A DNA stretch of 64,000 bases. It comes from Cliona cf. orientalis (Eukaryota > Porifera > Demospongiae > Clionaida > Clionaidae). Position 1 is the first letter of the stretch, and each line of letters starts with the position of its first letter. The translations under genes and the position numbers were made by a program. The DNA lies in the NCBI GenBank assembly GCA_963930775.1, contig OZ005689.1:620001-684000 (forward strand). Reading direction: 5' to 3'. The notes under the pieces were generated by a model. That model worked only from the letters and a program-made list of their open reading frames with translations. It had not been told where the DNA came from and ran no database searches. This document shows positions 1,202 to 64,000 of this stretch, in pieces.

Positions 1202-3608
1202 TTATGCAACAGAAGCAAATTCTACTAAATCAGAAGCCGATATACAGTCTGTAGTGTATCCTCCCACCACCATCAGTTGGTTGTTAGGGAGGAGAGCTGC
1301 AATACAGTCCCATCGTGGTGTCCCCATGTGGGTAATGACCTCCCAGGAGTCAGTGATTGGGTTGTATATGTAAATGGCAGATGTAGGTTTCTTATCTGAA
1401 CTCATCCCACCAATTGCTAGTAGTCGACCGTGAATGGATACATAAGTGGTCTGTGTGACTGGTGGTGCGGCAACTTCCTCCCATACTCTAGCACCTCGAG
1501 CTAGATCTAGATCTAGATCTGTTCCTGAAACTGGCTAGTAACGGCTTGCGGGACTGGGTGAGGGGTTGTAAGGAACATGTGTACATATTACTTAATGTAG
1601 ACTCCCCCAGGATGTAAATTTGATCACCACAGACTGACGCTGGAGCTAACCACAGTGGTTGAGGTAGATTAGCAGCAGTGGACCATTGGAGAGTCTCAGT
1701 ATTCATCACTTCAACTGTTTGTAGTTTAGATTCATTCCGAGGCTTTCCCCTTCCTGCTATAATTATTAGAGTAGCTTCAGTGCAAAGTGCAGTCGTCCCA
1801 TACCGCTTTGTTGGCATGGGTGGGAATTCCTCAGTCCACTTCTTATCACTGCCCTCCCCAGTGAGACTGAACAGTTGGTTGGTAAGGACATCTCTATGAT
1901 CATGGCCACCAATAAGAGTGAGGAGATTGTTGATGATGACTGAGGGGCAACTGGAGGTGAGGCTGTCTGGAAGTCGAGACCAACTGGAGGTACTGACAGT
2001 ATAATAAAATGCTTGACATCCTACTACAACATACAGAGTACTGCCATTCACAGCTGCACGGTATGATCCATGCATGTTACGTGGTGCTCTCTCACCCTCC
2101 CTCCATGTCAGCCTGATACTGGATGATGCATCTGTGGCTGGTCTCTGTCGCTCTAGTTCAGTAATTCGTCTCTGAAACTGAGCAATAACTCGTTCACTCT
2201 CTTCCAGCTGCTGGTTGACTCGTCCCAGCTGTCTCTCTAGTCGATCAATCTTCTCAACTTTCTCTGTCAGCTCTCTCTCCTTTTCTCCTAATTGCTGCTG
2301 TGCTTTTTGTCTCAGCTCAGCTATGGTTTCATCCTTTTGTGTAATTGTTTGCTCTTTTCTTGTGTCACTCTCTCTCAGCTGCTGGTTGACATATCCCAGC
2401 TGTCTCTCTAATCGATCAATCTCCTCAACTTTCTCTGTCAGCTCTCTCTCCTTTTCTTCTAGTAATAGCTGTGCCTGTTGTCTTAGCCAAACTATAGTTT
2501 CCTCTTTGCTTGAGATAATTTGATCCTTCTCTACTAAGTGATTTGTGTGTGACTGAATGATCCGTTGAAGGCCTTGAACTTGCTGACTATGCTGTTGTCT
2601 CAGTGATCTTAACTCCCTGTCTCTCTCACCACTTCTATCCTGCCCTGCTGCGCTCCTTGCTTCAACCACCCTCACACTCTCACTGTACTGTGGACCTTCT
2701 TTCAGAGCTGCTACTCTTTCACAGAGCTGCTCAGCTGAAGGGCGTTCAATATCCCTGTCCTTTAGACAGTCAAGGGCAACTTGTCTGAGGGGATAATTTG
2801 GATCAATTTTACTGATGTGGTTTTGCCGTTGTTCTATTTCTGGTACACATAGTTTCACAGCACCTTCAGGATAGCGTGGATCATTGAGTGTTACCAGCCG
2901 ATCTCCAGGTTTGGGAAATTGCCGTGTTACAATCTGGATAGCAATGACACCAAATGAGAAGCAGTCAATCTTCTCTGTGTACACTGGTTTATCTTTGACA
3001 GCTTCTGGAGGCATATAGACATCAGTGCCTGGACACATGGTGAAGGTAAGCTGAGTTGCTCGTGGGTTTTGATCGCCCAGCTTTGCCATTCCAAAATCGG
3101 TCACTTTGGCTCTCACATTACCAATCAGCAACACATTGTTGCTAGAGAGATCTCTGTGGACAATGCCATTGGAATGAAGAAATGAGAGAGTGAGGGTGAT
3201 GTCATGGCAAATGTTTACCTGGATGTGGTGGGGGATTGGCTTTGGAGAGCTTTCCAGAAAGTGGGTCAGGCTATCATCCATCAGCTCCATTAGAAGTGCT
3301 GGGAGGCCAGTGTCAGGATCTCGATAAATGCCCAGATATTGGACAATATTTGGGTGTCTTATGGTGCTCAGGAACTCACACTCTTGCTCAAATCTCTTCA
3401 TTGGTAGTCTGTGCTCTTCCTGAGGTGCTATTCGCTGCTGTGCGGTTGGATCAAAGAGAGTTTCATATATGAGTTTAGCAGCACAGAGGAGGTTGTCACA
3501 TTTTGCTCTACACACTTTTCCATAAGATCCAATACCGAGAGTTTCCTCTTTGAAAAAAATGATGCTTTTGAAGCCAGCCTTCTCCTCCTGTTGCTGTTGT
3601 CTAGCCAT
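1202..3608 (-). CDS. K1: kinase-coiled coil-kelch protein, late frameshift
   Basis: Single-exon gene. Residues 1-300 are a TKL-like kinase: P-loop GIGSYG at 25-30, catalytic-pair Lys in AAK at 45, HRDLSSNN from 151, DFG at 171-173, and MPPEA in place of APE. All key residues are present, so the kinase should be active. Residues about 324-495 are a coiled coil containing an internal duplication of the 'ERELTEKVEEIDRLERQLG' block. Kelch blades follow. The main frame closes at 1488, and the last two blades (1202-1405) lie in another frame. The break coincides with an expanded TCTAGA hexamer plus four extra bases near 1495-1520. K9 has one hexamer unit there and stays open. The N-terminus MARQQQQEEKAGF is unlike the other copies. 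This is either a recent pseudogene, a truncated but functional protein, or an assembly error. Confidence 0.85.
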
Positions 3609-4496
3609 TTCAATTATAGCTATTGCAAATTTAGTGTTGTAATAATGTGCTGTTGACTGAGAAGATATAATGTGTTATCTTGCACGATTACACTCCACTG
3701 AACTCACCCTTCGCTAGTTATTATATACACAATCACAAGATACGTCCATATGTGGCCACCCAATTCTTAATGAGCGTAACTAAAAACAATGTCGACCACA
3801 CCTTTGTTTGTATTGTTATACCCCTTATAGTTATTTACCATGGTAATCTTATAATACCGGTAGTATTATTATATCCACAGCTAGTCCCATTCTCAGATAT
3901 TTGTGATGCTGTGCTATACTGGTACCATTATAAACTAGAGCACTAATTTAAAGTGCTAAACTACCAGTCTAAATGCTTTACGCAAATGCAATATGTTATA
4001 AGTATTCAATATTGATGGTTGATATCACTGAGGTTGTGAGCCAGGATTGTCAGTACTTTTGTGATAAAGAGGAGCTCTATATAGAAAAACAAACAATTAT
4101 AATTAGATATGTACCTCATCAGGAATGGAAAGAACTAGCTATGATCACCATTCTTGCATTGGCTGATAGCTCTGGTCACATGCTAATCACACACAAAATC
4201 CGAAGTCTCTGCAATGAACCATGTAATATTATTATTATTATGAGCTAGAAATAAAAATGGCAACCAGAAACGATGTCACTTCAAACTGCAGGGGCTGATC
4301 TGTCTAGTGATCTCGCATGGAGTATTAATGCCATACTATAGTATATATTTTATCATATTGAACCAGCTTTAAGTTTCCAAATTAATTTTATCTATATCTA
4401 TACTAACTACAGTGTATTCAGCGGTATCATAGCTAATAATAATATGAATGGAATTCATGGAGCATCAGATGAATTTGCCCAAAACAGATATTATTT
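3609..4496. other. 5' flank of K1, no gene seen
   Basis: AT-rich spacer upstream of K1. The part up to about 3790 is similar to 57270-57520, so a second copy of this gene head once existed there. The conserved upstream block of the other K copies is not recognisable here. Small open frames in this stretch show no family resemblance. Confidence 0.4.
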
Positions 4497-4783
4497 CATT
4501 CAACATGTACTGTACAGAAGCAAATTCTACTGAATCAGTACTAAAAATGTTTTTATTGAATCCTCCCACCACCATCAATTGGTTGTCAGGGAGGACAGCT
4601 GTAATACAATTGTATCGTGATGTTCTCATGTGGCTGGCTAATGACCTCACAGGAGTCAGTGGTTGAATTGTACATGTGAATGGTTGTGGTGGATTTATAA
4701 TATGAATTATCCCCACCAATTGCTTGCAGTCGAACATGAATGGACACACAAGTGGTCAGTGTGACTGGTGGTGCTGCAACTTC
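4497..4783 (-). pseudogene. Kelch C-terminal relic
   Basis: Minus-strand remnant of the last two kelch blades of a K gene. It has recognisable pieces 'RYNCITAVLPDNQLMVVGG' and 'TDSVEFASVQ' and a degraded blade before them. The similarity ends abruptly at about 4783, just where the FRNRG.RVWKEVAAPP strand would begin, so the 5' nine-tenths of the gene is missing. It shows that a further array copy once lay between K1 and K2. Confidence 0.75.
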
Positions 4784-5329
4784 CTTGGTGTAGCTAATCT
4801 ATTACGAAGCTTTAGATCATAGTTATAATAAATACTGCGATCTGATTGGTCATTAGCAGGTATCTATATTATGGGATAGAATTCCTACAAGTCTGATAAA
4901 ACCCCTATAGACAACTTCATATCCTTGGGCTATTACAGTGTTGTACTATATGAATTAACTTGTTATAAACACTGTTTAGTCGGTTTCCATATGATTCAGA
5001 AGACCTCAGGGCTCCATAGAACCCTCACTTCGCTTTATTAGGATTCTACATAGAGCCCTTCGATCTTCTAAATCATGTAAAAACCTCCTAAATAGTGTCT
5101 AACTAATATGCAGTTCATATAGCTAGCTACGGTTTATCAACTTGAAATGGGAATGATGCCAAATAATTATTGATACAAGACTAGTGCAAGTTGGCCTCGA
5201 GGTTGATGCAGCCTTAATGACATGGGGTGTGAGCTTATATTATGTCATCACAATAAGGTTATCAATATTATAGCCAACTTGTGTATGTGTGTACGTGTGT
5301 GGGGAATCTCATGGCATACACATCACAAT
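4784..5329. other. Spacer with dispersed repeat
   Basis: No gene seen. The stretch 4960-5115 (CTCAGGGCTC...ATAGAACCCTC...CTTCG...TCTTCTAAATCA) recurs at about 36910-37045, so it belongs to a dispersed repeat family. Confidence 0.4.
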
Positions 5330-6078: not shown

Positions 6079-8302
6079 TCATTCTATTGAAGCGAATTCT
6101 ACTGAATCAGTTGAAACACTTCCAATGTATCCTCCAACCACCATAAGTTGCTTGTTAGAGAAGATAGCTGCAATACAATTGTATCGTGGAGTTCCCATGT
6201 GGCTAATGACCTCCCAGGAATCAGTGGTTGGGTCATACATGTGAATGGCTGGGGTGGGTTTCTGATCTAAATCTCCTCCACCAATTGCCAGCAGTTGACC
6301 ATGAATGGACACACAAGTAGTCAGTGTGACTGGTGGTGCAGCAACTTTCTTCCATACTCTAGTACCTCTGTTCCTGAAATTGGCTGGAAATGACTTGCAG
6401 GATTGGATGAGGGCTTGTAAGGAACATGTGTACATGTTAGACTCCCCCAGAATGTAAATCTGATCATCACAGGATGCCGCTGGTGCTCGGTGTATTGGTT
6501 TAGGTAGATCAGCAGCAGTGGACCACTGGAGAGTCTTAGTGTTCATCACTTCAACTGTTCGTAGTCCAGATACTCCCGAATCGTTATTCCCCCCGCCTGC
6601 TACAATTAGAGCTGCTTCAATGCACAGTACAATCACTCCAGACCGCTTTATTGACATGGGTGGAAGTTTCTCAGTCCACCTCCTACCACTGCCCTCCCCA
6701 GTGAGGCTGAACAGCTGATTGGTAACAGTATGTGAGTCACAATTACGGCCACCAACAAGAGTGAGGAGGTTGTTGATGATAACTGAGGGACAGCAGAAGG
6801 AAGGGCTGTCTGGAAGTCGAGACCAGCGGGAGGTGGTGACAGCGTAACAAAATACTTGACATCCTACTAAAACATATAGAGAACTGCTATCCACAGCTGC
6901 ATAGTATGATCGACTCAATTTACATGGTGCTTTCTCCCCCTCCCTCCATGTCAGCTTGATGCTGGTTCTCTGCTGTTTGCTACTGGACGATGTATCTGTG
7001 GCTGGTCTCAGTTGCTCTAGTTCAGTAATTCTTCTCTGAAATTGAACTATCGCTCGTTCACTCTCTTCCAGCTGCTGGTTGACACGTCCCAGGTGTCTCT
7101 CCAGGCGATCAATTTTATCCATTTTCTCCATCACTTCTCTCTCTGATTGCTGTGTTTGTTGTCTTAGTTGAGCTATGGTTTCATCTCTTTGTGTAATGGT
7201 TTGCTCTTTGCTAGTGATAGTTTGATCCTTCTCTGCTAAGTGACTTGTTTGTGATTGAATAATCTGTTGAAGGCCTTGAACTTGCCAATTATGTTGCTGT
7301 CTCAATGATCTTAGTTCCCTCTCTATCTCATCACTTTTATCCTGCTCTGCTGTGCTCCTTGCTTCAACCACCCTCACACTCTCGCTGTACTGTGGATCTT
7401 CTTTCAGAGCAACTACTCTTTCACAGAGCTGCTGAGCTGAGGGGCGTTCAACATCCCTGTCCTTTAGGCAGTCAAGGGCAACTCGTTTGAGGGGATGGTT
7501 CGGATCAATTGTACTGATGTGGTTTTGCCGTCGTTCTATTTCTGGTAGCTACACACAGTTTCACAGTACCTTGAGGATAGCGTGGATCATCGAGCATTAC
7601 CTGCCGATCTCCAGGTTTGGGAAACTGTCGTGTTACAATCTGGAGAGTGATGACTCCAAATGAGAAGCAGTCAATCTTCTCTGTGTACACTGGCTTATCT
7701 TGAACAGCTTCTGGAGGCATGTAGGCATCTGTGCCTGGACACATGGTGAAGGTAAGCTGAGTTTCTCGTGGGTTTTGATCGCCCAGCCTTGCCATTCCAA
7801 AGTCGGTCACTTTGGCTCTCACATTACTGATCAGCAAAACATTGTTGCTGGAGAGATCTCTGTGGACGATGCCATTGGAGTGGAGAAATGAGAGAGCAAG
7901 GGTGATGTCATGGCAGATGTTGACTTGGATGTGGTAATGGATTGGCTGTGGGGAGCTTTCCAGAAAGTGGGTCAGGCTATCATCCATCAGCTCCATTAGA
8001 AGTGCTGGGAGGCCAGTGTCAGGATCTTGATAAATGCCCAGATATTGGACAATATTTGGGTGTCTTATGGTGCTCAAGAACTCACACTCTTGCTCAAATC
8101 TCCTCATTGGTAGCCTATGCTCTCTCTGAGGTGCTATTAGCTGCTGTGCGGTTGGATCAAAGAGAGTTTCGTGTATGAGTTTAGCAGCACAGAGGAGGTC
8201 ATCACATTTTGCTCTACACACCTTTCCATATGATCCAATACCGAGGGTATTGTCCTTTAAAAGTCGGATACTATTGAATGCAATCTGCTTCTGCTGAGCC
8301 AT
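6079..8302 (-). pseudogene. K2: kinase-coiled coil-kelch gene with one frameshift
   Basis: Full-length family member. The kinase half (7505-8302) begins MAQQKQIAFNSIRLLK and has GIGSYG, AAK, HRDLSSNN, DFGMARLG and MPPEA intact. It stops shortly after the type-A linker 'DDPRYPQGTVKLC' because four extra bases (GTAGCTACACAC where relatives have GTACACAC) lie near 7547. The downstream frame (6079 to about 7540) is open through the coiled coil and all kelch blades and ends EFASIE. The coiled coil holds three heptad modules (KDQTITS, KEQTITQ, RDETIAQ), a low number for the family. As it stands it could yield a kinase-only protein of 265 residues. Sequencing error cannot be excluded, but the extra bases match the TAGCTA words common in this genome. 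Confidence 0.85.
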
Positions 8303-8439
8303 TTTGCCCTAATTATTAATAAAAGATGTTATGTGCTGGATGTCGATTTTAGTGTGGATATGGTTTGCTCATGCATAGAGAGGGGGTACTTTAATTACTA
8401 ATCATGTATATGCACAGAACATCATAATAGACTACTATA

Positions 8440-10108: not shown

Positions 10109-10184
10109 TTATTCTATGGAAGCGAATTCTACTGAATTAGTTGAAACACTGCCAATATATCCTCCCACCACCATCAGTTGGTTG

Positions 10185-12012
10185 TTTTTTTTTGTTTTTT
10201 GTTTTTTCTCTATAATATTTTTTGCTTTTGAAAAGAGCAAAGGATACACAGTTAGCACAATATATGGCTAATGATGATGTGGATCCAGAAATAATTATAT
10301 CCTATAGTATAGTAAAGTAAACATAAAGAATAATAGTATTCTTAGGTTAAGTTAACATGTAACTTAAAACTATTTAAGGATGGTAATGATAATATTTCAG
10401 AAGGAAGACTATTCCAAAGGGATACTGTGTGGGGTACAAAAGAATAAAAATAAGAATTAGTCCTTGCAAAAGGTTGGGATAAGTAATGGTCATGAGATGA
10501 ACGAAAGTGATAGTGTGGTGACTCTCTCTGTGCAATTGCATCACTCGGAAAATAAATCATATTGTGGACAATTTTAAATAGATGACAGAGTTTCAGCTCG
10601 AGCCTTCTTTTTTCAAGTGCTGGCAGGTTGGCTTTAGCGAGCAAATCTTCATATGTGGCACCATTCCATCTGCGGCTAATCATTTTGCAGGCAAATTTTT
10701 GCACATTTTCAAGTGAGTTAATGTCTTTGGAGGTGTGTGGTGCCCAAACGTGACAAGCATACTCCAAATGAGGTCTGACAAGCGAGATGTACACTGTAAA
10801 AAGAGAACTGTCAGTTTGACATACAGTATGTCATTTTGGTTGCAGGTGAGTGAATAAAACGTATCACTTGCAGAGGGGAACCTCATAACAAACTTTTCCT
10901 CTTTCATATTGGTTCCCCTACGCATTCTCATACCACTGCAGTAATTATCTGAATCCATGTGTGTGATTTATTCACTCACCTGCATCCAGAATGACAAACT
11001 ACATGTCAAACTGACATTTCCCTTTTTGCAGTGTACAGCTGTCGGATAGTTTCCGAGCTCATGAACTGGTAGTACCTCCTGAATAGCAGACCAAGTACCC
11101 TGCGAGCTTTGGAGCATATTTCATCTACGTGAGGAGACCATGATAGGTCTTTGCTCAAAAGAATTCCTAGGTATTTGTAGATATCGACTTGACCGAGGGT
11201 ATGCCCATTTAAGACTAGTGCTACCTCGGGTTGCAAAGGCTTCGACTTTCTAGAAATGATCAGGTATTTGCATTTCAATGGGTTAAGGGTGAGGTGGTTA
11301 GCAGTTGACCACTTCTCAACTTCGGCAATATCCTCTTGCACAGCTAGGAAATCACTCTGGTCTGCAATCGACTTGTATAGTAGCAAATCATCGGCAAACA
11401 TCGCTCTTAGGGACCCTGTTGTTAGTTGAATGGAACCAATTCCATCAACATAAATCAGAAACAGGAGAGGACCGAGCACAGAACCTTGTGGTACTCCAGA
11501 AAGGACATTTTCCATACTGGAAGTTTCACCTTCAACAACCACTTGCTGTGTTCTTGATGTTAAGTAGTCTGCAATCCATTGGATCAGGAAGCGATTCAAA
11601 TTAAGCGAGGTCAATCTTTGGAGAAGAGGACGATGTGGCACTGTATCGAATGCTTTACGATAATCAAAGAATATGGCACAGATATCTTTTCCCGCCTCCA
11701 ATAGCTCAAACCAGTTGGAGGTGGTGGATAGCAGTGCAGAGACCGTAGAACGACCAGCCCTAAATCCCCATTGCGAGTCAGAAAGAGGACAGTTCTCATC
11801 AAGCTCCTTGGTGACAAGTTGGAAGACGTGTCTTTCCAGGACTTTACTAAGAATGCTCAGCAAGGAGATGGGCCGATAGTAGTCAGGGGACTTTGCTGCT
11901 GGGATTTTGGGTATAGGAACAACAGAGGATCTTTTCCAACAAAGGGGTACCCTAACAAGCTTTAAAGATAAATTAAAGAGAGCTGTGACAGCAGGTGCAA
12001 TGCTGAATGCAG
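10185..12012 (-). mobile_element. 5'-truncated non-LTR retrotransposon (jockey/CR1-like reverse transcriptase)
   Basis: The poly(T) at 10185-10207 is the poly(A) tail of a minus-strand LINE. The reverse transcriptase shows 'YRPISLLSILSKVLERHV', 'FDYRKAFDTVPH', 'GVPQGSVLGPLLFLIYVDG' and the catalytic FADD box (usual form YADD), then 'YKYLGILLSKDLSWSPHV' and the C-terminal 'LVRPHLEYACHVWAPH' region at 10342-10794. The endonuclease domain is absent, as expected for a 5'-truncated insertion. It interrupts the last kelch blade of K3, with a short TGTT direct repeat at the junctions. A MITE (10792-11033) is nested inside. The RT frame is continuous with the kelch frame upstream, giving a 578-codon hybrid open frame (11006-12742). 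Confidence 0.9.
10792..11033. mobile_element. Tc1/mariner-type MITE nested in the LINE
   Basis: A 242-base element with inverted ends of about 75 bases starting CACTG(T/C)AAAAAG and sharing 'TGTCAGTTTGACAT' and 'GCAGGTGAGTGAATAAA'. It is flanked by TA on both sides (10790-10791 and 11034-11035). Removing it with one TA makes the LINE read straight through (RQLY-ISLVRP), so the borders are exact. No coding. Confidence 0.85.
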
Positions 12013-14188
12013 TGTTAGGGAGGGCAGCTGCAATACAGCTGTATCGTGGTGTCCCCATGTGGCTAATGAACTCCCAGGAGTCAGTGGTTGGGTTGTACAT
12101 GTGAACGGCTGAGGTGGGTTTCCCGTCTGAATCAATTCCACCAATGGCCAGCAATCGACCATGAACGGACACACAAGTGGTTAGTGTGACTGGTGGTGCA
12201 GCAACGTCTTTCCATGACGTTGCTCTGGTTCCACCAGGTCCTAATACGACCCTATAATATACTTGGAGTAGAACCGACTTCTTGGATTCAACAAGGGTTT
12301 GTAAGGAACATGTGTACATACTAGACTCCCCCGGGATGATGTAAAGTTTATCACCACAGACTGATGCGGGAATCCGGCAAACTGGTTGAGAAAAATCAGC
12401 AACAGTGGACCATTGGAGAGTCTCAGTATTCAGCACTTCAACTATTCGTAGTAATGACCTGTTGTTTATTTCCCCTCCAACTACAATCAGAGTTATTCCA
12501 GTGCATAGTGCAGTTGATCCCTGTTGCTTTGTTGGCATGGGTGGAAATTCTTCAGTCCAACTCCTAACATCAATATCCTTCCCAGTGAGACTGAACAGTT
12601 GATTGGTAATGGTATCACTACGATCCAAACCACCAACAAATGTGAATAGGTTGTTGATGATGACCAAGGGGCAGCTTTTTGTTGGGCAGTCAGGAATTAA
12701 GTCGAAACCATCTTGAGGTGCTGATAGAGTAACAAAATACACAATGAGTCACTGTTTGCCGAACATACAGTGCAGTATCATCCGCAACAGCACAGTATGA
12801 CTTGCTCATCTGACGCGGTGCTTCCTTCCCCTCCCTCCATATCAGCTTGATGCTGACTCTCTGCTCTTTGCTACTGGACGATTTATCGATGCCTGGCCAT
12901 ACGTCAAATTCAGCAATTTGTCTCTGGAATCGAGCATTATCTCGTTCACTCTCTTCCAGCTGCTGGTTGACACGTCCCAGCTGTCTCTCTAGTCGATCAA
13001 TCTCCTCAATTTTTTCTGTCAGCAATTTTTCCTTTTCTTCTAATCGCTGTGCTTGTTCTCTAAGCTCAGCTATAATTTCGTCTTTTTGTCTCAGTATTTG
13101 ACTGTTTTGTGCGATGGTTTGATCTTTCTCTGCTAACCGACTTGTTTGTGATTGAATAATCTGTTGAAGACCTTGAATTTGCTGCCTATGTTGTGATCTT
13201 AGTCCCCTGTCTCCCTCATCACTTCTATCCTGCTCTGCTGTGCTTCTTGCTTCAACCACCCTCACACTCTCACTGTACTGTATATCTTCTTTCAGAGCTG
13301 CTACTCTTTCACAGAGCTGCTGAGCTGAGGGGCGTTCAACATCCCTGTCTTTTAGGCAGTCAAGGGCAACCTGAAGGAGGGTGTGGTTTGGATCAATTTC
13401 ACCAATGTGGTTTTGTTGTCGCTCGAGCTCTGGTACAGGCACTTCGACTATTGGTGGTAATCCCGATTGACTACATTCAATTTCCTTTCGACAATCTCCA
13501 GGTTTGGGAAACTGTCATGTTACAATCTGGACAATAATGACACCAAACGAGAAGCAGTCAATCTTCTCTGTGTACACCGATTTATCTTTAACAGCTTCTG
13601 GAGGCATGTAGACATCTGTGCCTGGACACATGGTGAAGGTGAGCTGAGAGGCTTGTGGATTTTGATCGCCCAGCCTTGCCATTCCAAAGTCAGTCACTTT
13701 GGCTCTCACATTACCAATCAGCAACACATTGTTGCTGGACAGATCTCTGTGGATGATGCCATTGGAGTGGAGAAATGAGAGAGCGAGGGTGATGTCATGG
13801 CAGAGGTTGACTTGGATGTGGTAGGGGATCGGCTGTGGGGAGCTTTCCAGAAAATGGGTCAGGCTATCATCCATCAACTCCATTAAAAGTGCTGGGAGAC
13901 CAGTGTCAGGATCTCGACAAATACCCAGATATTGGACAATATCTGGGTGTCTTACGGTGCTCAAGAACTCACACTCTTGCTCAAACCTCCTCATTGGTAG
14001 CCTGTGCTCTCTCTGAGGTTCTATTCGCTGCTGTGCGGTTGGATCAAAGAGAGTTTCGTGTATGAGTTTATAGCAGCACAGAGGAGGTCGTCACATTTTG
14101 CTTTACAGACTTTTCCATAAGATCCAATGCCAAGGATTTCATCCTTTAAAAGTTGGACGGCTTTGAATCTATTCTGCCTTTGAGTCAT

Positions 14189-15179: not shown

Positions 15180-15640
15180 CCTCTTTCCTTGTGATAGTTT
15201 GACCATTGTCTGCTAAGCAACGTGTTTGTGATTGAATAATCCATTGAAGGCCTGACAATGTTGCAGTCTCAAAGATCTTAGTTCCCTGTCTCTCTCATCA
15301 CTGTTATCCTGCTCTGCTGTGCTCCTTGCTTCAATCACCCTCACACTCTCACTGTACTGTGGACCTTCTTTCAGAGCTGCATGCTACTCTTTCACAGAAC
15401 TGCTGAGCTGAGGGGCATACAGCATCCCTGTCCTTTAAGCAGTCAAGGGCAACTTACTTGAGGGGGTACCGTCATTCTATTTCTGGTATACGTAGCTACA
15501 TGCAATTTCACAGCATCTTGAGGAAAGCATGGATCATCGAGTGTTATCTGCCGATCTCCAGAATTGGGAAACTAGTGAATCCTCCCACCACCATTAGTCA
15601 ATTATTAGGAAGAACAGCTGCAATACAACGACCGTAACTA
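15180..15640 (-). pseudogene. K-gene relic (coiled coil, linker and kelch end)
   Basis: A minus-strand internal-deletion relic. It holds coiled-coil start, 'RDRELRSLR', the region after the kinase (CLKDRD..PSAQQ) and a type-A linker. It then jumps directly to the last kelch blade ('...NQLMVVGG', about 15575-15635). Several frame breaks are present. The paralogous copy is 58262-58740, so the relic predates the segmental duplication. Confidence 0.75.
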
Positions 15641-15698
15641 TTAAATTTTTGAACATGCATACAATCTACGTTTAACCTTTTAACACACTGTTATGATA

Positions 15699-19161: not shown

Positions 19162-19324
19162 AGCATCTTCTAACCACGCTCCTCACTCGTATTGATCTGT
19201 CATACACCATGATAGCATTGTTTGTGAAATTCGGCCTCAATATCACATAGCTACAGTCAGCACAGTATAGCACTACTGATGTATTTAGTACTCACGGTGC
19301 CTCCCTCCACCCTCTGGGGGGCAC

Positions 19325-53559: not shown

Positions 53560-53960
53560 TGTGGCATCCCCATGTGGCTCAGGAGTCAGTGGTTGGATTG
53601 TACATGGGAATGGCTAAAGTAGGTTTCTTATCTGAATCCTTCCCACCAATCGATCATGAATGGACACATAAGTGGTGTGAGTGATTGCCTCTGGTGCATG
53701 GTAGCTACAGCAACTTCCTTCCATACTCTATTCCTGAAATTAGCTGGAAATGATTTGTGGGATTGGATGAAGGCTTGTAAGGAACATATGTACATGTTAG
53801 ACTTCCCCTGGCCATGCTTGTCACGCCAGGCAGTGTGTGTGTGCACTGTCCATGCACAGCTATGATTCCACAATCAGTTTTGTTTTTAACACACTGAAGA
53901 AACTCTCTAGTCAGTATCAGCAGGATAATCACTCCAAATGTGAGTCGATCAATCTGCAAG
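53560..53960 (-). pseudogene. K-gene relic (kelch end plus kinase scrap)
   Basis: A kelch fragment at 53560-53812 ('SNMYICSLQAFIQS', 'NFRNRVWKEVA') is followed at 53890-53960 by a scrap of the kinase C-lobe ('IDRLTFGVIILLILTREF', compare IDCFSFGVIIVQIVTRQF). Most of the gene between them is deleted, and the frame is broken. Confidence 0.7.
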
Positions 53961-54335: not shown

Positions 54336-56585
54336 TTATTCAATAGAAGCAAATTCTACTGAATTAATTCCAACATCACCACTAGTGTATCCTTCCACCA
54401 CCATCAGATGGTTGTCAGGGAGGACAACTGCAATACAGTTGTATCGTGGGGTCCCCATGTGGCTAATGACCTCCCAGGAGTCAGTGGTTGGGTTGTACAC
54501 GTGGACGGCTGTGGTGGGATCCCCATCTGAATCCTCCCCACCAATTGCTAGTAGTCGACCATGAATGGACACACAAGTGGTCTGTGTGACTGGTGGTGCT
54601 GCAACTTCCTTCCATAATCTAGCACCTCTAGATCTGTTCCTGAAACTGGCTAGAAATGATTTGCCGGATTGGAGGAGGGTTTGTAAGGAACATGTGTACA
54701 TGGTAGACTCCCCAAGGATGTAAATTTGATCACCACAGACTGATGCTGGAGCTAACATAAGTGGTTGAGGTAGAGCAGCAGCAGTGAACCACTGGAGAGT
54801 CTCAGTGTTCAGCACTTCAACTTCTTTGAGTCCAGATACATAGTGTAGTACAGATTCATTATTTTCCCCACCTGCTACAATTAGAGCTGCATTAGTGCAG
54901 AGTACAATTGTCCCAGACCGCTTTGTTGGCATGGGTGGAAATTCCTCAGTCCACCTCCTACCACAGCCCTCCCCAGTGAGGCTGAACAGCTGATTGGTGA
55001 TGGAAGCCTGTATATCATACCTACGGCCACCAACAAGAGTGAGTAGGTTCATGATGACGACTAAGGTGCAGCTGTATGTAGGGCTGCCTGGAAGTTGAGA
55101 CCAGCTGGAGGTGCTAATAGTGTAACAAAATACTCGAGGTGTTACTGTAACATACAGAGTACTGCCATCTGTAGAAGCATTGTATGATCCACACATCTTA
55201 CACGGTGCTTTCTCTCCTTTCCTCCATGTCAGCTTGATGCTGGTTCTCTCCTCCTTGGTACCAGATGATGGTCTCAGTTGCTCTAGTTCAGCGATTTGTC
55301 TCTGAAATTGAGCATTAGCTCGTTCACTCTCTTCCAGCTGCTGGTTGACACGTCCCAGCTCTCTCTTTAGTTGATTAACTTTTTCTGTCAGCTCCCTTCC
55401 CTTTTCACCAAATTGCTGTACTTGTTCACTCAGCTCAGCTATGATCAGTGAATTTTGTGCAATTGCATCATCTTTTTGTACAATGGCTTCCTCTTTCCTT
55501 GTGATAGTTTGATCCTTGTCTGCTAAGTGACTTTTTTGTGATTGAATAATCTGTTGAAGGCTTTGAACTTCTTGACTATGTTGCTGTCTCAGTGATCTTA
55601 GTTCCCTGTCTCTCTCATCACTTCTATCCTGCTCTGCTGTGCTTCTTGCTTCAACCACCATCGCACTCTCACTGTACTGTGGATCTTCTTTCAGAGCTGC
55701 TACTCTTTCACAAAGCTGCTGAGCTGAGAGGCGTTCAACATCCCTGTCCTTTAGGCAGTCGAGGGCAACTTGTTTGAGGGGATGGTTCGGCTCAATTGTA
55801 CTGATGTGGTTTTGCCGTCGTTCTATTTCTGGTACACATAGTTTCACAGCACCTTGAGGATAGCGTGGATCACTGAGTGTTATCAGCCTATCTCCAGGTT
55901 TGGGAAACTGTCGTGTTACAATCTGGACTATGATAACACCAAATGAAAAGCAATCAATCTTCTCTGTGTACACTGGTTTGTCTTGAACAGCTTCTGGAGG
56001 CATATAAACATCTGTGCCTGGACACATGGTGAAGGTAAGCTGAGTTGCTCGTGGGTTTTGATCTCCCAGACTTGCCATTCCAAAGTCGGTCACTTTGGCT
56101 CTCACATTACCAATCAGCAACACATTGTTGCTAGAGAGATCTCTGTGGACGATGCCATTGGAGTGGAGAAATGAGAGAGCGAGGGTGATGTCATGGCAGA
56201 TGTTGACCTGGATGTGGTGGGGGATTGGCTGTGGAGAGCTTTCCAGAAAGTGTGTCAGGCTATCATCCATCAGCTCCATTAGAAGTGTTGGGAGTCCAGT
56301 GTCAGGATCTCGATAAATGCCCAGATATTGGACAATATTTGGGTGTCTTATGGTGCTCAAGAACTCGCACTCTTGCTCAAACCTCCTCATTGGTAGCCTG
56401 TGCTCTCGCTGAGGTGCTATTAGCTGCTGTGCAATTGGATCAAGGAGTGTTTCGTGTATGAGTTTAGCAGCACATGGGAGGTCATCACATTTTGCTCTAC
56501 ACACTTTTCCATAAGATCCAATGCCGAGGGTATCGTCCTTTAAAAGTTGGATACTTTTGAATGCCATCTGTTTCTGTTGAGCCAT
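54336..56585 (-). CDS. K9: intact kinase-coiled coil-kelch protein
   Basis: 749 codons in one exon, start MAQQKQMAFKSIQLLK. The kinase is complete: GIGSYG 21-26, Lys41, HRDLSSNN from 147, DFGMASLG from 167, MPPEA. Type-A linker (SDPRYPQGAVKLC). Four heptad modules (KDQTITR, KEEAIVQ, KDDAIAQ, NSLIIAE), and the 'DRLERQLG' block is altered to KVNQLKRELG. The kelch propeller is complete; blade 3 carries an insertion (HYVSGLKEVEV) and blade 4 has the single TCTAGA unit (FRNRSRGAR) whose expansion broke K1. Ends NSVEFASIE. Together with K5 it is one of the two copies with every catalytic motif and every blade in place. Confidence 0.93.
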   Translation of the reverse strand: MAQQKQMAFKSIQLLKDDTLGIGSYGKVCRAKCDDLPCAAKLIHETLLDPIAQQLIAPQREHRLPMRRFEQECEFLSTIRHPNIVQYLGIYRDPDTGLPTLLMELMDDSLTHFLESSPQPIPHHIQVNICHDITLALSFLHSNGIVHRDLSSNNVLLIGNVRAKVTDFGMASLGDQNPRATQLTFTMCPGTDVYMPPEAVQDKPVYTEKIDCFSFGVIIVQIVTRQFPKPGDRLITLSDPRYPQGAVKLCVPEIERRQNHISTIEPNHPLKQVALDCLKDRDVERLSAQQLCERVAALKEDPQYSESAMVVEARSTAEQDRSDERDRELRSLRQQHSQEVQSLQQIIQSQKSHLADKDQTITRKEEAIVQKDDAIAQNSLIIAELSEQVQQFGEKGRELTEKVNQLKRELGRVNQQLEESERANAQFQRQIAELEQLRPSSGTKEERTSIKLTWRKGEKAPCKMCGSYNASTDGSTLYVTVTPRVFCYTISTSSWSQLPGSPTYSCTLVVIMNLLTLVGGRRYDIQASITNQLFSLTGEGCGRRWTEEFPPMPTKRSGTIVLCTNAALIVAGGENNESVLHYVSGLKEVEVLNTETLQWFTAAALPQPLMLAPASVCGDQIYILGESTMYTCSLQTLLQSGKSFLASFRNRSRGARLWKEVAAPPVTQTTCVSIHGRLLAIGGEDSDGDPTTAVHVYNPTTDSWEVISHMGTPRYNCIAVVLPDNHLMVVEGYTSGDVGINSVEFASIE

Positions 56586-57520: not shown

Positions 57521-57547
57521 TATGGTATTTACCATAGTTATATCCAC

Positions 57548-57852: not shown

Positions 57853-58261
57853 ATATATTATTATTCTGCAATTAAATGACATAATAATACTGTTCAGTGT
57901 TCATGTATCTTTTCTCTTCTTTGTAGAATATCAAGATACCTCAATAGTACTGATGAGGTAATGTGATAGTATTGTATGTAAGCATTGGTGCACTGCCCTT
58001 TCCCTATTTCTTTCTCTAATATGAAATTTCTCTTACAGTTTGCACTGATAATACTTACACCATGTTTTTGTATTTAATGTTGAGGCTTTCCACATAACAT
58101 TAGCTATGATAATACCAGTATTCTCATTTTCTTGTACTACGTGTTCACTGTAATGGGGAAAGTGATTGGATTGCATGCAATGTAGGCAAAGGTTGTTAGA
58201 TCATGCTGCAAGGGGAGGATCCTATCTCAACGAGATCTACATGAGGTGGTAGCTGACTCAT

Positions 58262-58740
58262 CAAAAAATAGTTTCCTCTTTCCTTGTGATAGTTTGACCC
58301 TTGTCTGCTAAGCAACTTGTTTGTGATTGAATAATCCATTGAAGGCCTGACAATGTTGCAGTCTCAATGATCTTAGTTCCCTGTCTCTCTCATCACTGTT
58401 ATCCTGCTCTGCTGTGCTCCTTGCTTCAATCACCTTCACACTCTCACTGTACTGTCGATCTTCTTTCAGAGCTGCATGCTACTCTTTCACAGAGCTGCTG
58501 AGCTGAGGGGCGTACAGCATCCCTGTCCTTTAAGCAGTCAAGGGCAACTTACTTGAGGGGGTAGTTTGGATCAATGTGGTGTTACCGTCATTCTATTTCT
58601 GGTAGCTACATGCAGTTTCACAGCATCTTGAGGAAAGCATGGATCATCGAGTGTTATCTGCCGATCTCCAGGTTTGGGAAACTAGTGAATCCTCCCACTA
58701 CCATTAGTCAATTATCAGGAAGAACAGCTGCAATACAACG
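58262..58740 (-). pseudogene. K-gene relic, duplicate of 15180-15640
   Basis: Same structure as its paralogue (coiled-coil start, post-kinase region, type-A linker, jump to the last kelch blade). It retains about 18 bases ('GTTTGGATCAATGTGGT') lost in the other copy. Confidence 0.75.
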
Positions 58741-58808
58741 ACTGTAACTATTAAATTTTTGAACATGCATACAATCTATGTTTAACCTTTTAACACACTG
58801 TTATGATA

Positions 58809-61112
58809 TTAATTAGAAGCAAATTCTACAGATTTAGTTCCAAACAAGTCACTAGCTGTAGTGTATCCTCCCACCACCATCAGTTGGTTGTTAGGGAGGG
58901 CAGCTGCAATACAATTGTATCGTGGTGTCCCCATGTGGCTAATGACCTCCCAGGAGTCAGTAGTTGGGTTGTACACGTGAATGGCTGAGGTGGATTTCCC
59001 ATCTGAATCCTTCCCACCAATTGCTAGCAGTTGATCACAAATAGACACGCAAGAAGTGTTTGTGACTGGTGGTACAGCAACTTCTTTCCATACTCTAGGT
59101 ATTCTATTCCTAAATCTGGGTAGAAATGACCTCAATGTGCAGGATTCGATGAGAGCTTGCAAGGAACACGTGAACATGTTTGACTCCCCCAGGATGAAAA
59201 TTCGGTTGCCACTGATTGATGCTGGAGCATGTGATAGTGGTTGAGGTAGAGCAGCAGCAGTGGACCACTGGAGAGTCTCAGTGTTCATTACTTCGACTGT
59301 TTGTAGTTCAGATACTGTATTCCCCCCTCCTACAATTAGAGCTATTTCAGAACACAGAGTAATCGTCCCATATCGCTTCGTTGGCATGGGTGGAAATTCC
59401 TCAGTCCACTTCCTACCACTGCCTTCCCCAGTGAGGCTGAAAAGTCGATTGGTGATGACACCATCATAGTCATAGCCACCAACAACAGTGAGGAGGTTAT
59501 TGATGATGACTGAGCGATAGCTGTAAGTAGGGCATTCTGGAAGTCGAGACCAGCTGGAGCTGCTAATAGTGTAGCATAACATATTATGATCAGTCATTAT
59601 TTGCCGAATATACAGAGTACTAACATCCACAGCTGCACAGTATGATCCATTCATCTCACACGGTGCTTTCTCTCCCTCCCTCCATTTCAGCTTGATGCTG
59701 GCTCTCTGCTCTTTGCTGCTGCATGATGCATCTGTGGCTGGTCTCAGTTGCTTTAGTTCAGCAATTTGTCCCTGAAATCGAGCATTATCTCGTTCACTCT
59801 CTCTCAGCTGCTGGTTGACACATCCCAGCTGTCTCTCTAGTCGATCAATCTCCTCAACTTTCTTTGTTAGCTCTCTCACCTTTTCTCTCAATCGCTGTGA
59901 TTCTTGTCTTACCTCAGCAATGACTTTATCGTTTTTTGCAATGATATCTTCTTTTTGTGCAATCATTTCTTCTTTTTCTCTCATCATTTGACTATTTTGG
60001 GCAATGGTTTGCTCTTTTCTTGCAATAGTTTGATCCTTTTCTGCTAATAAGTGACTTATGTGTGGTTGAATAATTTGTTGGAGGCCTTGAATTTGCTGAA
60101 TATATTGCTGTCTCAATGATCTTAGTTCCCTGTCTCTCTCATCACTATTATTCCGCTTTGCTGTGCTTCTTGATTCAATCACCTTCACACTCTCGCTGTA
60201 CCGTCGATCTTCTTTCAGAACTGCTACTCTTTCACAGAGCTGCTGAGCTGAGGGGCGTTCAATATCCCTGTCCTTTAGGCAGTCGAGGGCAATTTGTTTG
60301 AGGGGATGGTCTGGGTCAATTTCATCAATGTGATTTTGTCGTCGCTCGAGTTCTGGTATAGGCACTTCTACTATTGGTGGTAATCCTGGTTGATTGCATT
60401 GAATTTCCTTTCGGCGATCTTCAGGTTTGGGAAACTGTCGTGTTACAATCTGGACAGCAATGACACCAAACGAGAAGCAGTCAATCTTCTCTGTGTACAC
60501 TGGCTTATCTTTGATAACTTCTGGAGGCATGTAGACATCTGAGCCTGGACACATGATGAAGGTGAGCTGCGTTGCTCGTGGATTTTGATCGCCCAGCCTT
60601 GCCATTCCAAAGTCGGTCACTTTGGCTCTCATATTACCTATCAGCAATACGTTGTTGCTGGAGAGACCTCTGTGGACAATGCTATTGGAGTGAAGAAATG
60701 AGAGAGCAAGAGTGATATCATGGCAGATGTTGATTTGGATGTGGTAGGGGATCGGCTGTGGAGAGCTTTCCAGAAAGTGGGTCAGGCTATCGTCCATCAG
60801 CTCCATTAGAAGTGCTGGGAGGCCAGTATCAGGATCTCGATAAATACCCAGATATTGGACAATATTTGGGTGTCTTATGGTGCTCAAGAACTCACACTCT
60901 TGTTCAAACCTCCTCATTGGTAGCCTGTGCTCTCTCTGAGATTCTATTTGCTGCTGTGTGGTTGGATCAAAGAGGGTTTCGTGTACGAGTTTAGCAGCAC
61001 AGATGAGGTCATCACATTTTGCTTTACACACTTTTTCATATGATCCAATACCGAGGGTCTTGTTCTTTAAAAGTCGGATGCTATTGAATGCAATCTGTTT
61101 CTGCTGAGCCAT
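58809..61112 (-). CDS. K10: kelch-coiled coil protein with degenerate kinase
   Basis: 767 open codons, start MAQQKQIAFNSIRLLK, the longest copy. Two catalytic elements have changed: the P-loop reads GIGSYE at 21-26 (third Gly to Glu; GGA to GAA) and the catalytic loop reads HRGLSSNN at 147-154 (Asp149 to Gly; GAT to GGT). MPPEA is MPPEV. Lys41 and DFG 167-169 remain. By kinase convention, loss of the HRD aspartate predicts no phosphotransfer, so it is probably a pseudokinase. Linker type B ('GLPPIVEVPIPELE'). Six heptad modules, the most in the array (KDQTIAR, KEQTIAQ, NSQMMRE, KEEMIAQ, KEDIIAK, NDKVIAE). Full kelch propeller ending KSVEFASN. Its duplicate K4 has intact catalytic residues but a frameshift. 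Confidence 0.93.
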   Translation of the reverse strand: MAQQKQIAFNSIRLLKNKTLGIGSYEKVCKAKCDDLICAAKLVHETLFDPTTQQQIESQREHRLPMRRFEQECEFLSTIRHPNIVQYLGIYRDPDTGLPALLMELMDDSLTHFLESSPQPIPYHIQINICHDITLALSFLHSNSIVHRGLSSNNVLLIGNMRAKVTDFGMARLGDQNPRATQLTFIMCPGSDVYMPPEVIKDKPVYTEKIDCFSFGVIAVQIVTRQFPKPEDRRKEIQCNQPGLPPIVEVPIPELERRQNHIDEIDPDHPLKQIALDCLKDRDIERPSAQQLCERVAVLKEDRRYSESVKVIESRSTAKRNNSDERDRELRSLRQQYIQQIQGLQQIIQPHISHLLAEKDQTIARKEQTIAQNSQMMREKEEMIAQKEDIIAKNDKVIAEVRQESQRLREKVRELTKKVEEIDRLERQLGCVNQQLRESERDNARFQGQIAELKQLRPATDASCSSKEQRASIKLKWREGEKAPCEMNGSYCAAVDVSTLYIRQIMTDHNMLCYTISSSSWSRLPECPTYSYRSVIINNLLTVVGGYDYDGVITNRLFSLTGEGSGRKWTEEFPPMPTKRYGTITLCSEIALIVGGGNTVSELQTVEVMNTETLQWSTAAALPQPLSHAPASISGNRIFILGESNMFTCSLQALIESCTLRSFLPRFRNRIPRVWKEVAVPPVTNTSCVSICDQLLAIGGKDSDGKSTSAIHVYNPTTDSWEVISHMGTPRYNCIAAALPNNQLMVVGGYTTASDLFGTKSVEFASN

Positions 61113-61924
61113 TTTTTGATACCCTTATTATAATAAAGATGTTATGTACTGGGTGTCAATTTTAGTGTGGTATGGTTTGCTCATACACAGAGAGGGGATT
61201 CTTTACTATCCATATAATGTTACTACTACTACTGAGCTATGCGGATTGTTTTCACCAGTAGCTTGCCTGTTTTGTAGCTATATAGCTAGCTACACTTGAA
61301 AACCACACCACGTTTAGCTGTTGACTCAGAATAGAATGATGCTGAAATGTTTTTCTTTCACTGTATCAGAGTTTTTCACAACATTATTAATTGTATTATT
61401 ATAGCTATTTAGCAATATCAATCTATGAATATTATCAAGGGAAGAGGGAGAGGGCATATAACTGGCACCTGGCAAAATTCAAATCCATAGGGTAATAAAA
61501 AGAGTAAAATGTACATTATCAGTCTATAATATAGCACTTATATATAGTGCCGATGATGCAGTCCAGACAGCAGCTGTTACTATAATTAGTTATAAACCAC
61601 TGTCCAATTTGAATTTTGCTAGGTACACTATCATGTATGGCAGTTACATGCCCTCTCCCCCTTTGGGGTCTATAAGCCCTTGATATTATTTAAACAAGTC
61701 AGTAGCTAATTTACTTGTGACTCTGTCCCAACGAGGGGGAAGCTTCTGACTCTGCTGAGAAACAGAGCATCTTCTAACCACACTCCTCACTCGTATCGAT
61801 CTGTCATACACCATGATAGCATTGCTTCAGTGTGAAATTGGGCCTCAATATCACATACAGTCAGCACAGTATAGCACCACTGATGTATTTAGTACTCACG
61901 GTGCCTCCCTCCACCCTCTGGGGG
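61113..61924. other. 5' flank of K10
   Basis: Duplicate of 18011-19324. It holds the conserved upstream block (61240-61390) and the foldback pair 'AGAGGGCATATAACTG' / 'CAGTTACATGCCCTCTCCC' (61450-61660). It lacks the 488-base composite insertion of the other copy. Confidence 0.5.
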
Positions 61925-63112
61925 GCACTTGACCTGGACAGTACCATAGTGGTTGAGGTAAATCAACAGCAGTGGACCACTGGAGAGTCTAGTATTAATT
62001 ACTTCAATTGTTCGTAATTTAGATTCGTTCTTGAGTCTAGATCTCCCTCCTACAATTACAGCTGCTCCAGTGCATAGTAAAATTGTCTTGTACCCTGACT
62101 GACTTTATTGGTGGCTGGAATTCCTCAGTCCACCTCCTACACCACCTATGGCCACCAATATTAAAGATTGAGGAAGTTTTTGATGATGACTGAGGGACAT
62201 TTGAAGATAGGGGCTCAGGGGCGGATCCAGGACATCAAGTTGGGGGGATCATAGACTAAATAATCGCGCGCAAAGCGCGGGCAAAATTTTTGGCCCCGCC
62301 CACTTTTGTAAAGACCACGCCCTCATTGTTGCCGCGAACGAGACAAACAGCCCGAGATGTCAATGGAACCCGACTTTTTCATCGTACAAACAGGTTTTTA
62401 GCTATATTTTGTATCAGATCATGGTTCATTAGTTGAAGAGAGGGTGATAAAGCTGGCTGTTTAGCCAAGCACAGCAAGCTGGCTGGTACAAGATGTTCAG
62501 CCCTGGAAGCGGGGGTCATCTGCCCCCCATGACCCCCCCTGGATCCGCCCCTGGGGCTGACTGGAAGATGAGACCAGCTGGAGATGCTGATAGTGTAACA
62601 AAATGCTTGAAGATTTAGGATAACATAATAATATTATAGAGTAGCTACTGCCACCTACAGCTGCATTGTATATGATTACATGTTGCTCTCTCCCCCTCCC
62701 TCCATGTCAGCTTGATGCTGGATGATGTATCTGTGGCTGGTCTCAATTGCTCTAGTTCAGCAATTCATCTCTGAAATTGAGCAATAACTCATTCACTCTC
62801 TTCCAGCTGCTGGTTGACTCGTCCCAGCTGTCTCTCTAGTCGATCAATCTCCTCAACTTTCTCAGCTCTTTCTCCTTTTCTCCTAGCTAATTGTTGCTGT
62901 GCTTGTTGTCTCAGCTCAGCTATGGTTTCATCCTTTTGTGTAATTATCTATTTGATACTTCTCTGCTAAGTGACTTGTTTGCAATTGAATAATCTGTTTA
63001 AAACCTTCAACTTGCTCACTATGTTGCTGTCTCAGTGATCTTAATTCCCTGTCTCTCTCATCACTCTATCCTGCTCTGCTGTGCTTCTTGCTTCAACCAC
63101 CCTCACACTCAC
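61925..63112 (-). pseudogene. K-gene relic, duplicate of 19325-20393
   Basis: Kelch blades 1-3 and coiled coil only, with several frame breaks. Interrupted by a MITE (62216-62553) that the duplicate lacks, and lacking the Harbinger-type MITE that the duplicate has. Confidence 0.75.
62216..62553. mobile_element. MITE with CAGGGGCGGATCCAGG ends
   Basis: 338 bases with 16-base perfect inverted ends. Flanked by GGGCT on both sides (62211-62215, 62554-62558). The empty site is at about 19817. The interior has a CG-rich 'ATCGCGCGCAAAGCGCGGG' motif. The ends resemble those of widespread hAT-like MITEs, but the target repeat looks shorter than the usual 8 bases, so the superfamily is unsure. Confidence 0.8.
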
Positions 63113-63172
63113 ATTGTGAATAATTATTCAATTCATGGTCACATTGGTGCATGCAGTGTCAAAATAATATTA

Positions 63173-64000
63173 TTATTCAACAAAAGCAAATTCTACTAAA
63201 TCTGATGCTGATATACTATCTGTAGTGTATCCACTCACCGCCATCAGTTGGTTGTTAGGGAGGACAGCTGCAATACAGTCCGATCGTGGTGTTCCCATGT
63301 GGCTAATGACCTCCCAGGAGTCAGTGGTTGGGTTGTATATGTGAATGGCCGATGTAGATTTCCGATCTGAATCCATCCCACCAATTGCTAGCAGTCGACC
63401 ATGAATGGGCACATAAGTGGTCTCTGTGACTGGTGGTGCAGCAACTTTCTTCCATACTCTAGTGCCTTTGTTCCTAAAGTTGGCTAGTAATAGCTTGCGG
63501 GATTGGATGAGGGCTTGCAAGGAGCATGTGTACATAATATTGGACACACCCAGGATGTAAATTTGATCACCACAGACTGACGCTGGAGCTAACCACAGTG
63601 GTTGAGGTAGATCAGCAGCAGTGGACCGCTGGAGAGTCTTAGTGTTCAGCACTTCAACTGTTTGTAGTTTAGAGTCGTTCTTTCCCCTTCCTGCTATAAT
63701 TATTAGAGTAGCTTCAGTGCAAAGTGCAGTCGTCCCGTACCGCTTTGTTGGCATGGGTGGGAATTCCTCAGTCCACTTCCTACCACTAGTGAAGCTGAAC
63801 AGCTGATTGGTGAGGACATCTCTATGATCACGGCCGCCAACAAGAGTGAGGAGGTTGTTGATAATGACTGAGAGGCAGCTGGAGGTGAGGCTGTCTGGAA
63901 GTCGAGACCAGTGGGAGGTGCTGACAATGTAACAAAACACTTGACATCCTACTATAACATACAGAGTACCGTCATCCACAGCTGCACGGTATAATCCATG
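63173..64000 (-). CDS. K11: kelch part of a K gene, cut by the window edge
   Basis: Near-identical duplicate of the 3' part of K5. The frame is open from the right edge of the window (HGLYRAAVDDGTLYV) through all kelch blades to VEFAFVE. A few changes relative to K5: 'LMVVGG' is 'LMAVSG' in the last blade, weakening the double-glycine signature, and 'WSTAADL' is preceded by LQR rather than LQ. The kinase and coiled coil lie beyond the window, so their state is unknown. Confidence 0.9.
   Translation of the reverse strand, partial: HGLYRAAVDDGTLYVIVGCQVFCYIVSTSHWSRLPDSLTSSCLSVIINNLLTLVGGRDHRDVLTNQLFSFTSGRKWTEEFPPMPTKRYGTTALCTEATLIIIAGRGKNDSKLQTVEVLNTKTLQRSTAADLPQPLWLAPASVCGDQIYILGVSNIMYTCSLQALIQSRKLLLANFRNKGTRVWKKVAAPPVTETTYVPIHGRLLAIGGMDSDRKSTSAIHIYNPTTDSWEVISHMGTPRSDCIAAVLPNNQLMAVSGYTTDSISASDLVEFAFVE

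Follow-up and report, generated by a model that had tools for sequence, protein, structure and literature searches.

Tandem kinase-coiled coil-kelch genes of the sponge Cliona cf. orientalis suggest a family of intracellular recognition sensors with a diversifying kelch face

A 64,000-nucleotide stretch of the genome of the boring sponge Cliona cf. orientalis (chromosome 1, contig OZ005689.1 of assembly GCA_963930775.1, positions 620,001 to 684,000; hereafter the window, or C1:620001-684000) carries a tandem array of genes that each encode a protein kinase, a coiled coil and a kelch propeller, and raises the question of what so many copies of so unusual a protein might do. The copies share one architecture, belong to an expanded family, are mosaic and in part decayed, and selection on them is concentrated in the DA and BC loops of the kelch propeller. 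We consider that they probably encode intracellular recognition kinases, in which a constant kinase output is joined to a diversifying kelch sensor face, within a genome-wide and lineage-expanded family.

The array was examined by tblastn, with six window copies as queries against the window (and a rerun of the K5 query), and by Pfam, and its existence and limits are as given in an initial annotation made from the letters of the window. Every family match lies on the minus strand, in agreement with the single orientation described there. All eleven long copies, K1 to K11, were recovered, and where "at least six" relics had been proposed our own grouping of the tblastn matches gives eight relics or fragments (a single 63-base match at 10115-10177 is excluded). 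Pfam finds a protein kinase (E values of 6e-34 to 2e-40) followed by kelch in all five long frames that were scanned whole (K1, K5, K7, K8 and K9), and 21-base tandem repeats, a unit length that indicates heptads in the coiled-coil region, lie between kinase and kelch in K4, K5, K9 and K10; the proposed order of kinase, coiled coil and kelch is thus upheld, K5 and K9 included. The initial annotation knew of no well-described animal family with this layout, which is consistent with the open-licence literature searched: the matches listed include no description of a kelch-kinase family in sponges, and phrase variants of "kelch kinase" match there in a plant paper only.

Searches of the genome (216.79 Mb, one primary assembly of 149 contigs) place the window within a much larger family. 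Each of five whole-protein searches scored about 60 candidates and gave 65-70 matches; the family counts are lower bounds because every query taken from another cluster added new members. By an unscripted hand tally there are at least 89 places with a whole-length match and no stop, in one or two pieces (K8, whose usable frame begins after residue 28, is counted), and these lie on 13 chromosomes (1, 2, 3, 4, 5, 7, 10, 14, 15, 16, 17, 18 and 19). A kelch-only query gave 127 matches from 126 scored candidates, and the codon pattern of the kinase motif HRDLSSNN occurs 397 times, a sister clade (see below) included, versus once for the reversed control. The family is genome-wide and, as we read it, lineage-expanded. 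Around the window, a 200 kb cluster at C1:511.7-713.4 kb holds 28 HRDLSSNN places, a run of 10 on the plus strand followed by 18 on the minus strand; the uniform orientation of the window thus represents one arm of a larger, opposed-arm cluster. Fifty distinct sequences, each with a frame of 676-818 amino acids, were drawn from the window and the other loci retrieved, and trees group them mostly by chromosome cluster, with exceptions on C17, C18, C1:5.26 Mb and C15:3.1 Mb. The groups C14, C1 and C15 used below are clades, of which C14 takes in the C18 and C1:5.26 Mb members and C15 takes in one C17 member.

The kinase is the constant part of these proteins. Its best PDB matches are IRAK4, then B-Raf and BRI1, with one EGFR chain among them, and we assign it to the tyrosine kinase-like (TKL) group from this sequence search rather than from a kinome tree. 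The catalytic lysine, HRD aspartate and DFG aspartate are present together in 47 of the 50 sequences; the three exceptions are one sequence that lacks the N-terminal part as read, K10, which has HRG, and L040, which has glycine for the DFG aspartate. K10 also has an altered glycine loop and retains its kelch domain, and it is intact where its twin K4 is broken by a frame change; the HRG of K10 at the position of the catalytic aspartate indicates that this copy is probably catalytically dead and hence a pseudokinase. Among close paralogues in six groups, tree-free pair counts give the kinase a ratio of nonsynonymous to synonymous change (ω) of 0.12-0.25, and the kinase is under purifying selection.

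The kelch region, recognised from Pfam kelch models and from sequence matches to KLHL proteins and Keap1 (six blades were counted by eye), gives a strong fit to models of positive selection in five groups. In 32 pairs with a kinase synonymous divergence (dS) of 0.05-0.15, median nonsynonymous divergence (dN) over median dS is 0.25 for the kinase, 0.47 for the coiled coil and 0.77 for kelch; the sole pair closer than this band gives 0.59, 0.26 and 0.53, respectively. Site models, which we coded ourselves (a codon model on a nucleotide tree with free scale), were compared as M1a versus M2a. The likelihood-ratio statistic (LRT) for kelch is 186.8 in C14 (n = 11), 114.2 in C1 (n = 15) and 79.4 in C15 (n = 11), and it is 128.6 and 66.2 in two later groups, C5 and C4 (n = 8 each). 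In these five groups 8-11% of kelch sites fall in a class with ω2 of 3.8-6.1.

The location of these sites is what ties the selection to a possible function. Blade limits were drawn by eye, with the kelch motif (double glycine, tryptophan, x-P-R) as the guide. In the whole-domain fits of the five groups, the 60 sites with a posterior above 0.95 are without exception in DA or BC loops, and none lies in the opposite (AB and CD) loops or in the strands. For C14, C1 and C15 together this amounts to 40 of 40 sites within 252 DA/BC positions, with none at 205 AB/CD loop positions or 366 strand positions; in C5 and C4, for which kelch parts of additional members were retrieved later and the limits were fixed before fitting, it is 12/12 and 8/8 (20/20; P = 4.8e-6 by Fisher's test versus the opposite loops). 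Selected sites occur on all six blades, in at least one group each, and within the face the same positions recur between groups above chance (P = 0.0015, 0.00125 and 0.028). Tree-free counts over six groups (49, 16, 23, 5, 3 and 1 pairs) give an ω of 0.80-1.51 for DA plus BC, 0.28-0.64 for AB plus CD and 0.39-0.52 for strands, with DA plus BC above the opposite loops in all six. From motif and spacing, the DA and BC loops are probably the ligand face of the propeller, and the selection tests, by placing diversification there, lend support to the sensor role that the initial annotation had put forward as conjecture.

Several observations weigh against this account. The kinase tests are nominally significant in C14 and C1 as well (LRT of 21.7 and 11.6, with 4.6 in C15); these fits gave numerical warnings, and the C1 kinase set includes K8, whose first residues are shifted. 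The loop limits were set by eye from sequence motifs after the first site list had been seen, if before the C4 and C5 fits, and 5 of the 16 C4 and C5 sequences had already been used in the pair counts, so that mainly the remaining 11 count as fresh data in this replicate. Of 26 kelch sites called by a FUBAR-like run, 22 fall in the face (those outside are 469, 498 and, twice, 634), and the run also called one kinase site; runs with separate trees put 38 of 39 in the face (634 again lies outside). The small group C16 (n = 5) has an LRT of 11.3 with no site above 0.95, and at 0.8 has 6 of 9 sites in the face. Naive empirical Bayes posteriors are overconfident, and the tree-free values come from 3, 1 and 5 pairs in C4, C5 and C16, respectively. 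In several groups the bootstrap intervals of the face and of the opposite loops overlap, and the tree-free ω of the whole face is about 1 and not clearly above it. Given that average and those intervals, it is the site models that carry the case for ω above 1, and both the site models and the tree-free counts that single out the DA/BC face.

A mean face ω near 1 is also what would be expected if the family were redundant and decaying and its unneeded kelch loops were drifting, and the absence of a whole-length intact frame in 7 of the 11 long window copies fits such relaxed constraint too. Drift would not, however, give an ω2 of 4-6 at about one tenth of sites, nor positions that recur in separate groups, and the very same genes keep their strands at 0.39-0.52 and their kinases at 0.12-0.25, with the opposite loops slower than the face. 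We regard relaxed constraint as very unlikely to be the explanation and retain diversification of the DA/BC face.

Recombination between copies is present and is a further complication. Trees of the kinase, the first half of kelch and the second half of kelch reject one another in every one of 18 comparisons by the approximately unbiased (AU) test. Its largest P is 0.032, between the kelch halves of C15 (where the Shimodaira-Hasegawa test does not reject), and the 12 comparisons of kinase with kelch in three groups all have P of 0.0025 or less, which bears out the mosaicism noted in the initial annotation. When kelch was divided into three segments, each with its own tree, all 9 tests remained significant (P at most 0.0016). 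Null data were simulated for C14 and C15 (32 sets, of which half came from three different trees); the LRT was 18.2 at most, with at most one site above 0.95, and the observed signal was not reproduced; the quicker optimiser of these simulations gave an observed C14 LRT of 230.3, versus 186.8 in the main fit.

How does the selected face compare with kelch propellers of known binding mode? The PDB sequences that top the matches to the propeller are SAKe proteins, which we take to be designed, and the nearest to K5 kelch after them are KLHL12, KLHL2, the NS1A-binding protein, KLHL3, KLHL17 and Keap1. In KLHL3 the contacts to WNK4 are residues 339, 355, 360, 402, 404, 432, 433, 449, 451, 498 and 528, among which pairs 16 and 21 residues apart recur by blade (339, 355, 360; 433, 449) (PMC4019986). 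The selected sites here (K7 numbering) have much the same +16/+21 spacing as those contacts (PMC4019986): 504 to 521 and 526, 557 to 573 and 578, 603 to 620, 659 to 675 and 679, and 707 to 723 and 727. Residues 234-295 of the K5 kelch stretch pair with 144-205 of the KLHL3 chain 4ch9_A in the PDB sequence search, and if that chain ends at 587 and the pairing is free of gaps, K7 residues 659 and 675 would correspond to KLHL3 Ser433 and Tyr449, both of which are contacts. KLHL proteins and Keap1 share kelch repeats with the present family, but they are ubiquitin-ligase adaptors, whereas here kelch is joined to a kinase in a large family diversifying within one genome; neither BTB nor BACK domains were matched in the 10 proteins scanned with Pfam at E up to 1.

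Kelch is known as a substrate docker, as in the binding of WNK peptides by KLHL3 (PMC4019986), and each copy might accordingly present a different host protein to its kinase, with no antagonist involved. Conserved endogenous partners predict purifying or episodic selection, however, and not diversification of the same loops in five groups, and we think such docking rather unlikely as compared with the reading of non-self by a diversifying face.

A cell-surface role was considered from the hydropathy of the same 50 proteins, in which the best 19-residue mean is 1.01-2.06; by this crude test no transmembrane segment is evident, and a receptor-kinase reading of the window type was rejected on that ground. 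This also bears on the idea that the genes serve allorecognition between sponges instead of defence against, or management of, microbes. Clustered, mosaic and diversifying loci would fit that role, and sponges do react to allografts (PMC6993872), but allorecognition at the cell surface would need a transmembrane segment, and the copies, by the hand tally, lie on at least 13 chromosomes and not at one segregating locus. We regard it as doubtful and favour recognition inside the cell.

A membrane-spanning version of the design may nevertheless exist among more distant relatives, ten of which, at divergent HRDLSSNN places, were read by eye (with Pfam on L031 and L036). L031 (C2:5710700-5714400) is a single open frame with a kinase, a hydrophobic membrane-like segment (19-residue mean of 2.43) and kelch, and is possibly a type II membrane receptor. 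L033, L036 and L038 (the last in two frames) combine a kinase and kelch with a linker or coiled coil between them, and in L030 coiled coil and kelch share one frame with a kinase motif upstream. In L029 the kinase-coiled coil part and the kelch part occupy different frames, and a likely GTGAGT...GCAG intron separates the two. L035 (C3:2866000-2869700) has a 944 amino acid frame in which a kinase of the same type and a coiled coil are followed by a long Pro/Ser-rich tail and a terminal cysteine cluster; kelch was not seen by eye in this frame, which puts an alternative C-terminus on this kinase type, and it was not seen by eye within the stretches fetched for L032, L034 and L037. The L031 query gave 68 matches, mostly of kinase-only coverage and many at C4:10.3-10.8 Mb, so the sister clade is itself large. 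From the makeup of these relatives, the family is part of a wider assemblage of sponge TKL kinases, of which one or more apparently span the membrane.

The window itself illustrates how the family turns over. Four of its 11 long copies are open over their whole length: K5 (20440-22698, 752 amino acids, kinase then kelch by Pfam), K7 (45328-47538, 736 amino acids, about 11 terminal residues of which do not align with K5), K9 (54336-56585, 749 amino acids, with a near-identical copy, L004, at C1:615.7 kb) and K10 (58809-61112, 767 amino acids, with HRG in place of HRD). K7 supplies the residue numbering of the selection tests; its TKL-type kinase, under purifying selection across the family, spans residues 1-300 (46639-47538), and its propeller, with the selected sites in DA and BC loops, residues 450-736 (45331-46191). 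One frame change each was found between matches in K1 (1208-3608, close to the kelch end, with a 706 amino acid open frame at 1488-3608), K2 (6082-8303, close to the kinase end), K4 (15699-18010), K8 (49961-52291, a 776 amino acid open frame, where the change near kinase residue 28 costs the glycine loop) and K11 (in the coiled coil; its kelch part, 63173-64000, is cut by the window end, and the locus, L046, runs to about C1:685.4 kb). K3 (11969-14201) has two and K6 (41777-43981) four. The K3 kelch frame (11006-12742, minus strand) continues at its 3' end into a reverse-transcriptase domain (E 7.9e-32), the mark of a retroelement at that end of the copy.

The relics and fragments, also on the minus strand and found by tblastn, retain final kelch blades (4510-4786), coiled coil and kinase end (15169-15492 and 58264-58681), coiled coil and partial kelch (19322-20397), the N-terminal half of the kinase (44026-44578), kelch (53582-53807 and 61926-62232), and coiled coil with a little kelch (62553-63109). 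Intact and broken copies thus stand side by side. The 3.9 kb block 14760-18673, which holds K4, is repeated with 95.8% identity at 57856-61772, which holds K10, and 19817-21270 is repeated with 93.2% identity at 62554-64000. The repeated blocks include flanks and relics (58264-58681 lies in the block whose repeat holds 15169-15492), which indicates that relics were already present in the blocks when these were duplicated; the birth-and-death evolution that had been proposed for the array fits all of this.

The copies had been described as intronless, and all 50 sequences of the set, which was chosen for long open frames, are indeed single open frames. Intronless copies on many chromosomes, together with the reverse-transcriptase sequence joined to K3, would suit a family spread mainly by repeated retroposition and not by DNA duplication. 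Against this, the 3.9 kb duplicates in the window carry their flanks and neighbouring relics, and relatives mostly cluster by chromosome, apart from the four exceptions given above; repeated retroposition as the main route is quite improbable, and we favour duplication at the DNA level. For the founder, the likely intron in L029, of the sister clade, makes an intron-bearing ancestor plausible, as the idea of a retroposed founder in the initial annotation supposes, with simple intron loss as the alternative. A bacterial or viral origin was also considered and set aside: K5 gave 61 and 2 pattern matches against genome_contigs and viral_contigs, respectively, in a search sensitive to close relatives only, and none is a confirmed relative.

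A neighbouring intron-bearing gene, at 30723-40250 on the plus strand, resembles an Eph receptor ectodomain. Its ephrin-binding domain scores above the cut-off (E 2.5e-14), and the pieces that follow (cysteine-rich, fibronectin III and a TMEM154-like membrane-spanning end) score below their own cut-offs. A 38-base tandem repeat occurs at 27942-28055 and, in the opposite orientation, at 30405-30556, in both cases just ahead of this gene.

Among known systems, the nearest working analogue is the HNWD family (HET-E) of the fungus Podospora, in whose propeller each WD repeat has four positively selected positions, on the interaction surface; birth and death is considered the mode of evolution of fungal NOD-like receptors (NLRs) in general (PMC4986451). 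HNWD proteins share with the sponge genes a multigene family, a beta-propeller sensor, positive selection on the interaction surface and exchange between members, and differ in having an NLR output, a WD propeller and near-identical repeats, where the sponge has a TKL kinase and unlike kelch blades, in an animal. Demosponges also have large, species-specific families of putative intracellular NLR sensors, though with NACHT-LRR rather than kinase-kelch architecture, and the word "kelch" does not occur in the main text of that report (PMC12909245). NACHT and NB-ARC, the NLR hallmarks, had no match in the same 10 proteins (Pfam, E up to 1). IRAK, RAF and plant receptor-like kinases have the closest kinase domains, but the HRDLSSNN catalytic-loop signature and kelch C-terminus set the present family apart, and no death domain, Ras-binding domain or ectodomain was found by Pfam in the family proteins scanned. 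Choanoflagellate Eph-like tyrosine kinases likewise combine a kinase with kelch motifs in one protein, but theirs is a tyrosine kinase with kelch among the N-terminal domains, and, as far as the account of them shows, they do not form an expanded TKL-coiled coil-kelch family (PMC6993872). In a study of microbe-associated molecular patterns in two other sponges, kelch-motif genes are among those down-regulated (PMC6208332).

A constant kinase, a coiled coil of variable length and a propeller that changes at its probable ligand face together have the anatomy of a recognition receptor. By this scheme variation would reside in the C-terminal propeller, which acts as the sensor: the DA and BC loops, on one face of the presumed fold, diversify from copy to copy while strands and opposite loops are held constant. 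The coiled coil would probably join subunits into oligomers. Binding of a ligand would gather subunits and let the N-terminal TKL kinases trans-phosphorylate one another, by analogy with IRAK and RAF, giving a constant signalling output. New specificities could arise by tandem duplication, by recombination that re-pairs kinases and propellers, and by point changes in the loops, and copies that fail would decay. We infer an immune role, with non-self (microbes, intracellular symbionts or other sponges) as the presumed driver.

These results suggest that the kinase-kelch genes are a previously undescribed set of recognition sensors. Non-vertebrate animals are thought to rely on expanded innate receptors, and the papers on sponge receptors consulted here concern NLRs and scavenger receptor cysteine-rich (SRCR) proteins. 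If correct, our reading would describe a kind of recognition receptor new to animals, a family of about 89 whole-length members whose output is enzymatic and in which selection is concentrated on a single probable binding face; the selected positions provide a short list of residues for testing. More speculatively, and with the chances somewhat against so broad a view, demosponges may possess, in addition to their NLRs, another very large class of receptors for non-self in the cytosol, kinase-linked kelch propellers whose ligand face diversifies like that of plant resistance proteins and HNWD, and which in Cliona may read intracellular symbionts and intruders and report directly by phosphorylation. 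Cliona harbours dinoflagellates inside its cells (PMC12639293), which makes recognition of symbionts or pathogens within the cell an attractive, if speculative, idea. The tolerance of intracellular algae by sponges would then become directly testable, with a sensor face, a candidate ligand compartment and a kinase readout defined.

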